Source of the DNA: Qipengyuania gaetbuli
GTDB lineage: Bacteria > Pseudomonadota > Alphaproteobacteria > Sphingomonadales > Sphingomonadaceae
Direction: 5' to 3'
Assembly (NCBI RefSeq): GCF_009827315.1
Contig: NZ_WTYF01000004.1
Coordinates: 682,001-746,000 of the forward strand
DNA: 64,000 bases
Position numbers and translations under genes: made by a program. Under the pieces are notes generated by a model. It saw only the letters and a program-made list of their open reading frames with translations. It ran no database searches and was not told the DNA's origin. Every line of letters starts with the position of its first letter. The stretch's first letter is position 1. Of this stretch, positions 16,024-17,683 are shown piece by piece.

Positions 16024-16050
16024 AAAAAGGCCCGGAGAATGCTCCGAGCC
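16024..16050 (-). terminator. Intrinsic terminator for leftward transcription
   Basis: The minus strand reads GGCTCGGAG-catt-CTCCGGGCC followed by TTTTT: a hairpin of nine positions with one mismatch and a U-run. On the plus strand no T-run follows, so it should end leftward transcripts. No annotated minus-strand gene lies just upstream, which implies an unrecognised leftward RNA starting somewhere before the ilvE leader. Confidence 0.6.
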
Positions 16051-16186
16051 ACAAATGCTGATTCTGACGTGGGAAAACTTTTTTTCAAGCCTTGTTTTAC
16101 ACGCCGCAACGCAACAAATTGATAGTCAAGATCAGCGGCGAACGCGGTCTTGGGGCCCTTGAAAAGGCTTCTAGCTCACTAGCGCG

Positions 16187-16200
16187 AAAGGAGGTGATCC
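16187..16200 (+). promoter_or_regulatory. Perfect 14-base Shine-Dalgarno sequence of the leader ORF
   Basis: AAAGGAGGTGATCC is the exact complement of the conserved 3' end of 16S rRNA (GGATCACCTCCTTT). The GGAGG core sits 8 bases before the ATG at 16202. Fourteen continuous pairs is far more than a normal ribosome binding site in this window. Confidence 0.85.
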
Positions 16201-16201
16201 G

Positions 16202-16258
16202 ATGTCTCATGGTTCAGCAGAGAGGTCGGCAAGTTTCCGCGCGAGGTACTATCGGTAA
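16202..16258 (+). CDS. 18-residue leader peptide MSHGSAERSASFRARYYR
   Basis: An 18-codon ORF directly after a perfect 14-base Shine-Dalgarno sequence. The peptide is Ser/Arg-rich and ends RARYYR; it has no branched-chain residue run, so it is not a classical ilv attenuator peptide. Its last codons (CTATCGG) form the 5' arm of a hairpin whose loop holds the TAA stop. The next long gene on the strand is ilvE, about 320 bases downstream. It may be a regulatory leader, an arrest peptide or a genuine microprotein. Evidence is purely from the sequence. Confidence 0.6.
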   Translation: MSHGSAERSASFRARYYR

Positions 16259-16485
16259 GCAGACCCGATAGAGACTTCGTGAGCGGCACTTCCGCCGCTG
16301 ACCATGCGAAGGGCAGTTTCTCCTCCGGGCGAAGCTGCCCTTCTCATTTCGGGTCGTAGCCCTCAGACGCCGGGCGCGACGCATCCGCGTCGCTTGGCTT
16401 CGGCCTGACCGGCCGTCACGCGGTCGCGTTCTGACTGCCGTGACCAAGATTGGCTCTGGGCTTGGAATCAAAAACGCGAGCCAAT
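16249..16485 (+). promoter_or_regulatory. Structured leader upstream of ilvE (serial hairpins)
   Basis: Five inverted repeats in a row. Hairpin 1: CTATCGG (16249-16255) with CCGATAG (16265-16271), containing the leader-ORF stop. Hairpin 2: AGCGGC (16282-16287) with GCCGCT (16294-16299). Hairpin 3: a 13-pair stem, 16308-16320 with 16331-16343, whose loop TCCTCC could pair with GGAGG of the leader ORF. Hairpin 4: GCGACGC (16376-16382) with GCGTCGC (16387-16393). Hairpin 5: ATTGGCTC (16449-16456) with GAGCCAAT (16478-16485). Hairpin 3 is not followed by a convincing U-run. This is not a riboswitch class I can name. Confidence 0.5.
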
Positions 16486-16579
16486 GGCGAGTGCAAGGCC
16501 GACCGGCCGCCCGCAGCGATGCGACCGCCAGGTCGCGTGAGCGAGGATATCGCGAGCGCGGACGCGCTTGCGGAACACA

Positions 16580-17679
<1,100 letters not shown>

Positions 17680-17683
<4 letters not shown>

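Follow-up and report, generated by a model that had tools for sequence, protein, structure and literature searches.

A predicted terminated small RNA upstream of ilvE, related by sequence to the CC2171 family and carrying a 16S rRNA-tail complement and a short open reading frame

The CC2171 RNA of Caulobacter is catalogued as a small RNA, and Landt 2008 is reportedly its original report. The corresponding Rfam family, RF01867, carries the type 'Gene; sRNA', and no function for it was found in the literature searched. In the RNA papers searched, as far as their available text extends, CC2171 is mentioned in just two tables, one in the Rfam 15 paper (PMC11701678) and one of Mesorhizobium huakuii small RNAs (PMC5596092). 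The latter lists MH_s33 as the CC2171 entry and gives it a second set of coordinates, spanning 215 nt, which is taken to be the RNA-seq product. Neither an open reading frame (ORF) nor an element complementary to the 16S rRNA tail is described for CC2171 in the available text, supplements aside. According to the accessible parts of a study of Caulobacter genome architecture (PMC4117421), 75.4% of coding sequences in this organism lack a Shine-Dalgarno (SD) sequence, against which a small RNA with a 15-base SD stands out all the more. The same source states in general terms that Caulobacter noncoding RNAs as a whole are untranslated by ribosome profiling, and this calls for caution toward the explanation favored below. 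The nearest alphaproteobacterial small RNAs with ORFs in the literature searched, within its available text, are UpsM of Rhodobacter sphaeroides (PMC5089854) and rnTrpL of Sinorhizobium meliloti (PMC10117765).

The RNA described here lies in a window of 64,000 nucleotides from Qipengyuania gaetbuli, by which we mean the whole stretch of DNA that was analyzed. Sequence comparison, folding and a consensus scan indicate that approximately positions 16127-16349 correspond to a small RNA, about 220 nt long, that ends at an intrinsic terminator. Among loci of the genus, the conserved stretch begins near 16127, upstream of the interval considered in the original prediction, and ends near 16349. The fold of 16187-16600 is more stable than those of all 100 shuffled sequences (z -5.5). 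The features of the RNA and its surroundings are as follows.

16064..16098, + strand: upstream block CTGACGTGGGAAAACTTTTTTTCAAGCCTTGTTTT, strongly conserved among 30 genus-level loci
16127..16152, + strand: 5' hairpin CAAGATC-GCG/CGC-GGTCTTG, which forms an additional 5' domain in the window's type and whose pairs persist in 27-29 of 29 sequences
16186..16200, + strand: GAAAGGAGGTGATCC, complementary at 15/15 positions to the alphaproteobacterial 16S rRNA 3' tail
16202..16258, + strand: 18-codon ORF, peptide MSHGSAERSASFRARYYR; start, frame and length conserved, peptide without visible selection
16208..16213, + strand: CATGGT (codons 3-4), 5' strand of a long-range helix, pairing with 16301-16306
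16249..16271, + strand: hairpin CTATCGG/CCGATAG, whose loop contains the stop codon; double changes at four pairs in 9-12 of 29 sequences
16282..16299, + strand: short conserved hairpin AGCGG/CCGCT, whose pairs are invariant and hence without covariation
16301..16306, + strand: ACCATG, which immediately precedes the terminator and supplies the 3' strand of the long-range helix
16308..16349, + strand: intrinsic terminator GAAGGGCAG.../...CTGCCCTTC followed by TCATTT; six stem pairs show double changes among 29 genus sequences
16350..16603, + strand: spacer to ilvE, outside the RNA, made up for the most part of a repeat-bearing insert that the closest relative (locus L006) lacks
16604..17683, + strand: ilvE, a neighbor only in the window's type; the name, for a branched-chain aminotransferase, comes from the original prediction, and class IV aminotransferase homologues are found downstream

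The 16S-tail element had been described as a perfect 14-base SD complementary to the 3' end of 16S rRNA, and this description holds. The sequence AAAGGAGGTGATCC at 16187-16200 is the sole match with at most two mismatches in the 64 kb, versus 0.25 expected, and together with the preceding G it is complementary at 15 of 15 positions to GGATCACCTCCTTTC, the 16S 3' tail. The reference for the tail is a 53-base 16S end, which agreed at 53/53 positions in all 20 matches listed of 535 plasmid records; these are alphaproteobacterial plasmids (class by genus name), for which the gene table lists no RNA genes at these places. The segment from GAAAGG through the fourth codon is invariant across 30 genus loci, the window's own included. 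RF01867 was also used to fetch loci, and of the 30 with the highest scores, 29 have an SD that is perfect or has a single mismatch; the thirtieth (L040) has two SD changes and an ATG start. In all 29 loci the base before AAAGG is G, and a variable base precedes a start codon that is either ATG (15) or GTG (14). Masking of the SD by an internal copy of the 16S tail is at most weak: the mean z is -0.24 for the window's type and ranges from -0.8 to -1.5 for the other types.

An exact match to the SD-start pattern is found in 67 of 147 alphaproteobacterial genomes versus none of 250 other Pseudomonadota (rows counted by hand), and in 48 of 289 genomes of the class. A scan of named genomes yielded at least 119 stretches with the pattern, and the 80 titles listed include Rhizobiales, Rhodobacterales, Sphingomonadales, Caulobacterales, Rhodospirillales and Acetobacteraceae. 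The pattern is not wholly specific, in that locus L136 resembles an ordinary gene. Both L136, an Azospirillum record, and L231, an IMG/VR contig, have a perfect SD before an ordinary-looking longer frame, so the full 16S-tail complement occurs outside the small RNA too. One genome (G072) has two SD-start copies, one with GATCGA and the other with GATCCG, which are perhaps diverged paralogues of the RNA. A phage origin was considered and rejected; six IMG/VR contigs contain the pattern, and, judged from at most 230 bases of each, three look like the Bradyrhizobium-type RNA and two like the MSHCH type (one of them cut off), and in the sixth the pattern stands before a longer frame. A remnant of a 16S gene was also rejected, since the complement ends at the tail and the homologues have a start codon, an ORF and a helix there.

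A total of 187 distinct sequences (205 loci), preselected for the SD and start, were sorted into types A, B, C, D and X according to how the peptide begins, irrespective of taxonomy. The window belongs to type A (MSHG), which is Sphingomonadales by every title seen except that of L136; type C is mostly Rhodobacterales, and type X is mixed. The exception, L136, has a 59-codon frame that looks like a typical secreted protein, so its match probably arose by chance; it is kept in the type-A counts. Because the 187 sequences were selected for the SD and start, conservation of these elements rests on the 30 genus loci found by BLAST and on 29 of the 30 RF01867 loci.

A permissive Rfam scan gave one convincing match for the window, RF01867, the Caulobacter sRNA CC2171. 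Positions 16177-16341 align to model positions 1-159 of 159 at 38.3 bits (E 7.4e-7 in 301 bases), which is below the gathering threshold of 75 bits. Together with the SD-free model described below, this makes the RNA an RF01867 homologue, though not a listed member by Rfam's own rule. At an E-value of 0.01, RF01867 is detected in 69 of the 289 genomes of the class, and it exceeds the gathering cut-off in nine. Seven loci drawn from the five types match RF01867 at 33 to 90 bits, and at E 0.01 they match no other Rfam family except a tRNA. A second model was built from 25 of the 50 type-B sequences, cut downstream of the SD and start codon. This SD-free model, whose E-values are rough, finds the window RNA at 16204-16352 with an E-value of 4.4e-8 in 142 kb (28.3 bits). 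It also detects three further type-A loci, which score 21-43 bits, whereas no unrelated match in the window exceeds 16.4 bits. The Rhodobacterales-like and Rhizobiaceae-like loci reach only 16-20 bits, near this background match, so homology there rests on RF01867 with the SD included. The sequences used for this model, and the 37 of the same 50 that were aligned for analysis of the helix, remained after odd-length or most divergent ones had been dropped by eye.

At closer range, a 211-base BLASTN probe detects the RNA in 35 of 61 genomes, namely the window's own and 34 of 36 relatives in the same genus, and in none of 24 genomes from other families of the order. The two genus relatives in which it was missed have assemblies split into 380 and 420 contigs. 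The 30 genus loci fetched keep the terminator stem and the 5' hairpin. Comparison with relatives had been proposed as a check on the locus, and the BLASTN search, the genus alignment and the RF01867 loci together reveal conservation of the SD, ORF and stems.

At the 3' end, the terminator is also recognized by the consensus scan, and its counterpart in type B likewise has double changes (37 sequences). Double changes in the hairpin that holds the stop codon fall largely between two clades of the genus, and the pairs of the 5' hairpin are nearly all invariant in 29 genus sequences. The conserved block upstream of the RNA is probably its promoter or an operator; the consensus scan gave no sigma-70 match for this block on the + strand. 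The extra 5' domain and this block together suggest that the RNA begins near 16127 in the window's type. Other types have promoter-like hexamers about -50 and -27 from the SD, approximately 17 apart and at a fixed distance, which occur at about 8-18 times background, and the RNA would therefore start about 14 bases before the SD in those types. In the window's type, a hexamer promoter was not seen at the corresponding place. The minus strand has a terminator-like hairpin with a T run (16029-16050) a short way upstream of the conserved block; an antisense transcript may end here, or the hairpin may terminate the upstream gene as a bidirectional terminator.

The ORF was predicted to have 18 codons and a stop in the loop of the first hairpin, and indeed its TAA lies in the loop of 16249-16271. 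The length of this frame is conserved: it is 18 codons in 59 of 62 type-A and 17 of 19 type-C sequences, and it has medians of 24 and 24.5 codons in types B and D, with a coefficient of variation (CV) of 0.08; in the mixed type X the CV is 0.30. The stop codons TAA, TGA and TAG interchange among the 187 sequences. The first stop of frames 1 and 2 lies among the conserved first codons or else at widely varying places (CV 0.42 to 2.33), and these frames are no clean null, as this stop is in conserved codons in, for example, 27 of 30 sequences (frame 2, type D) and 11 of 17 (type C).

The peptide itself is poorly conserved. In close pairs, the synonymous share of changed codons is 12/103 in type A, 11/29 in B, 19/56 in C, 5/20 in D and 2/11 in X. 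The random expectation, computed for single changes, is 0.23-0.27 (0.25, 0.26 and 0.27 for A, B and C), so that type A is below it and types B and C are slightly above it. Past codon 8, mean amino-acid identity is 0.21-0.63, which is lower than nucleotide identity in every type. Two clades of the genus have peptides whose second halves are quite different (MSHGSAERSASFRARYYR and MSHGSVARSVKIPTEHTR) and yet equal in length. The Bradyrhizobium-type peptide includes KRCHLAGIAR in all five loci looked at, and the same bases can form the long-range helix described below. A 14-codon variant, KRCHLA[GE][IV]AR, is found at L105, L115, L119, L123, L141, L161, L166, L227 and L230, of which L105, L115, L119, L123 and L141 are Bradyrhizobium by title; those of these loci whose sequence was printed contain TCACCTC, which is able to pair with the SD. 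Overall, the codon comparisons make the ORF look like a reading frame without a selected product, a statement that is firm only for the window's type. Because peptide selection is absent in this type and not clear elsewhere, an arrest peptide or a microprotein, both of which had been suggested, is unlikely. For an Arg/Tyr-dependent arrest peptide in particular, the YYR ending is found in 9 of 62 sequences of the window's type and in none of 125 of other types, and codon and identity tests in the five types did not reveal a conserved peptide near the stop.

The long-range helix connects the beginning of the ORF to the segment directly before the terminator. It is CATGGT/ACCATG in the window and CATTGTC/GACAATG in type B; CATGGT is invariant in the genus, and the counterpart helix covaries in other orders. 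In the type-B alignment (37 of 50 sequences), the helix and terminator together have double changes in 15 of 18 pairs, and 96.1% of cells pair. There are 49 double-change cells versus 8.3 in shuffled alignments, and none of 500 shuffles reaches any of five measures. Versions of the helix that are slid out of register have only 33-62% pairing. Mean duplex energies with true partners and with partners swapped between types, calculated for 183 of the 187 sequences (four without a clear terminator were left out), are -21.8 and -16.3 kcal/mol in type A, -22.8 and -15.5 in B, -16.5 and -14.0 in C, -17.3 and -14.2 in D, and -18.1 and -15.2 in X. The true partner is better in all five types, with differences in C, D and X that are smaller than one standard deviation of the swaps. 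Against the helix, it never varies within the genus, and other pairings are preferred when the window or the genus alignment is folded freely; in the genus the CCGAT around the start codon can pair with an invariant GTCGG, which competes with a simple helix picture. Another switch had been proposed at this locus, in which the TCCTCC loop of a 13-pair hairpin pairs with GGAGG of the leader. The 13-pair stem is present with its loop, and the switch is not borne out, because CCTCC occurs in the terminator-loop region of only 11 of 29 distinct genus loci.

The association with ilvE is a local one. The gene probably starts at 16604, since in 17 of 30 genus loci the alignment to the longer ORF does not begin before residue 12 or 13, and it is downstream of the RNA in all 30 genus loci. 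When each distinct locus is counted once and 900 nt or more of sequence must be available downstream, ilvE follows the RNA in 42 of 60 of the window's type (29/29 in the genus and 13/31 others) and in none of 116 of other types. A general role as an ilvE leader, as originally envisaged, is thus not supported, and the constant linkage to an ilv biosynthetic gene that would be expected of attenuation is not found. The earlier view that this is not textbook attenuation is sustained by the peptides: three Ile/Leu/Val residues in a row occur in 0 of 62 of the window's type, and such runs are present in 14 of 125 peptides of other types, which are without ilvE. About 240 bases of further inverted repeats had also been assigned to the leader, and these prove to be largely an insert. 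Locus L006 is identical through the RNA and has ilvE about 204 nt closer. Positions 16338-16449 and 16493-16566 are pieces of a dispersed repeat that recurs elsewhere in the genome at three sites (79, 85 and 96% identity), and the distance from terminator to ilvE varies widely within the genus.

Other types are found in varied contexts. In 62 of 106 of their loci, the next predicted gene points the opposite way to the RNA, and most of these are real genes, to judge from Pfam matches for 14 of 20 picked opposite-strand proteins; the other 6 of the 20 have no match. Downstream genes were called by a longest-ORF rule, which chose the wrong strand in at least three type-A loci (L079, L097 and L148, in which ilvE is forward), so the overall opposite-strand figure of 76/139 is too high. 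Downstream genes include those for RF-1-domain proteins (4/63), EamA transporters (3/63) and RNB-domain proteins (3/63). At the Rhodobacterales-like loci L077, L089, L124 and L158, a gene for a protein of 140-141 amino acids follows the RNA, and in L077 it is arfB, which is involved in ribosome rescue. A gene for a queuosine-precursor transporter is upstream in L077 and L158, and RNase R is downstream in L078. A link to ribosome rescue through arfB and the RNB-domain genes (3/63) was set aside as local synteny.

The explanation that we consider slightly more likely than not is that this RF01867 homologue is an autonomous, terminated RNA built for ribosome engagement, in which the act of translation, not the peptide, is functional. 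The 15-base element would pair with the free 3' tail of 16S rRNA and place a ribosome on the ATG or GTG, and the short ORF, of set length and arbitrary sequence, would be translated to a fixed stop. A ribosome on the first codons would pull apart the long-range helix to the segment before the terminator, giving two states of the RNA, folded and ribosome-occupied, and the RNA would close when ribosomes are scarce. With a peptide that drifts, the output has to come from the RNA or the ribosome; it might be the stability or activity of the RNA, exposure of its 3' segment, or occupancy of free 30S subunits. Comparison of homologues supports the homology, the SD, the conserved start, stop and frame, the terminator and the varied contexts, as well as the lack of clear peptide constraint and the covarying helix of other orders. 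Ribosome binding and translation in the cell, the fold switch and the control output are what we infer from them. The suggestion of a ribosome-occupancy sensor made in the original prediction comes close to this explanation. More tentative, but still plausible, is the idea that its full 16S-tail complement and content-free ORF of set length let the RNA serve across the class as a gauge or clamp for initiating ribosomes, with its fold reporting ribosome availability to the cell. Very long SD duplexes may slow initiation, which counts against the favored explanation. Our confidence in it was lowered, and that in a microprotein raised, because of the slight synonymous excess in types B and C and the limited reach of the SD-free model.

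The element could instead make the RNA a ribosome sponge that captures 30S subunits by the 16S tail, with an ORF that merely releases bound ribosomes. Complementarity that extends beyond the SD core toward the 3' end of the 16S tail and the G kept before AAAGG in 29/29 loci fit such a sponge, but it would need neither a set frame length nor a covarying helix, and we regard it as unlikely. A small mRNA encoding a functional microprotein of about 14-26 residues would fit the strong SD, the conserved start and stop, the synonymous share slightly above random in types B and C, and the near-constant KRCHLAGIAR of Bradyrhizobium, though the same bases can form the long-range helix. This alternative is improbable in view of the identity past codon 8, which is below that of the nucleotides in every type, and of the 12/103 synonymous changes in the window's type against a random 0.25, a result that also speaks against the microprotein originally proposed for this locus.

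As a cis leader or attenuator of ilvE, the RNA would use translation of the ORF to control the terminator, which does lie between them, and ilvE follows in 42/60 loci of the window's type, including all 29 of the genus; a cis role could even be a later addition in the window's lineage. Yet the gene is absent within 900 nt in 18 of those 60 loci and present in 0 of 116 others, and none of 62 peptides has an Ile/Leu/Val run, so that this role is about as improbable as that of a microprotein. An ordinary noncoding, trans-acting sRNA, in which the SD-like element and the ORF are incidental or serve as a seed, would agree with the Rfam type, the intrinsic terminator and the promoter-like elements of other types. 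It is the least probable of the alternatives, as it does not account for a start limited to A/G-TG, a stop position kept despite changes of stop codon, and a preserved frame-0 length.

If ribosome engagement with a drifting peptide is the correct explanation, it would account for a conserved RNA across many Alphaproteobacteria, and it would provide a natural case of conserved 16S-tail pairing well past the usual SD.

The known RNA nearest to the window RNA is RF01867/CC2171, with which it shares end-to-end homology in the model alignment, the SD, the long-range helix and the terminator. The window RNA differs in its extra 5' hairpin domain, its AUG start, its 18 codons and its score below the cut-off, and the family is catalogued as an sRNA whose ORF is unmentioned in the available text of the literature searched. 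UpsM, as described in the accessible parts of its report (PMC5089854), is likewise a terminated small RNA at the head of a gene for which a small ORF has been proposed. In contrast to the window RNA, however, UpsM derives from the mraZ 5' UTR and is found in Rhodobacteraceae only, and its ORF crosses the terminator and is said to be present only in R. sphaeroides. That the two are the same RNA was rejected in the light of that report; L077 and L158, the two Rhodobacterales-like loci checked, have a queuosine-precursor transporter upstream, and the genes downstream include those for RF-1-domain proteins and EamA transporters. The rnTrpL RNA of S. meliloti, which encodes peTrpL, resembles the window RNA in being a small RNA with a short ORF, which in rnTrpL is translated; it arises from an attenuator, and the accessible text (PMC10117765) describes a leaderless ORF and a functional peptide, whereas the window RNA has a strong SD and an arbitrary peptide. 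Pairing past the core SD is also known from the extended SD motifs of Staphylococcus aureus, where it helps to set the start codon and is estimated in the available part of that paper (PMC13009471) to involve about 30% of ordinary initiation sites. Unlike these ordinary initiation sites, the window has a near-complete complement of the 16S tail on one small RNA.
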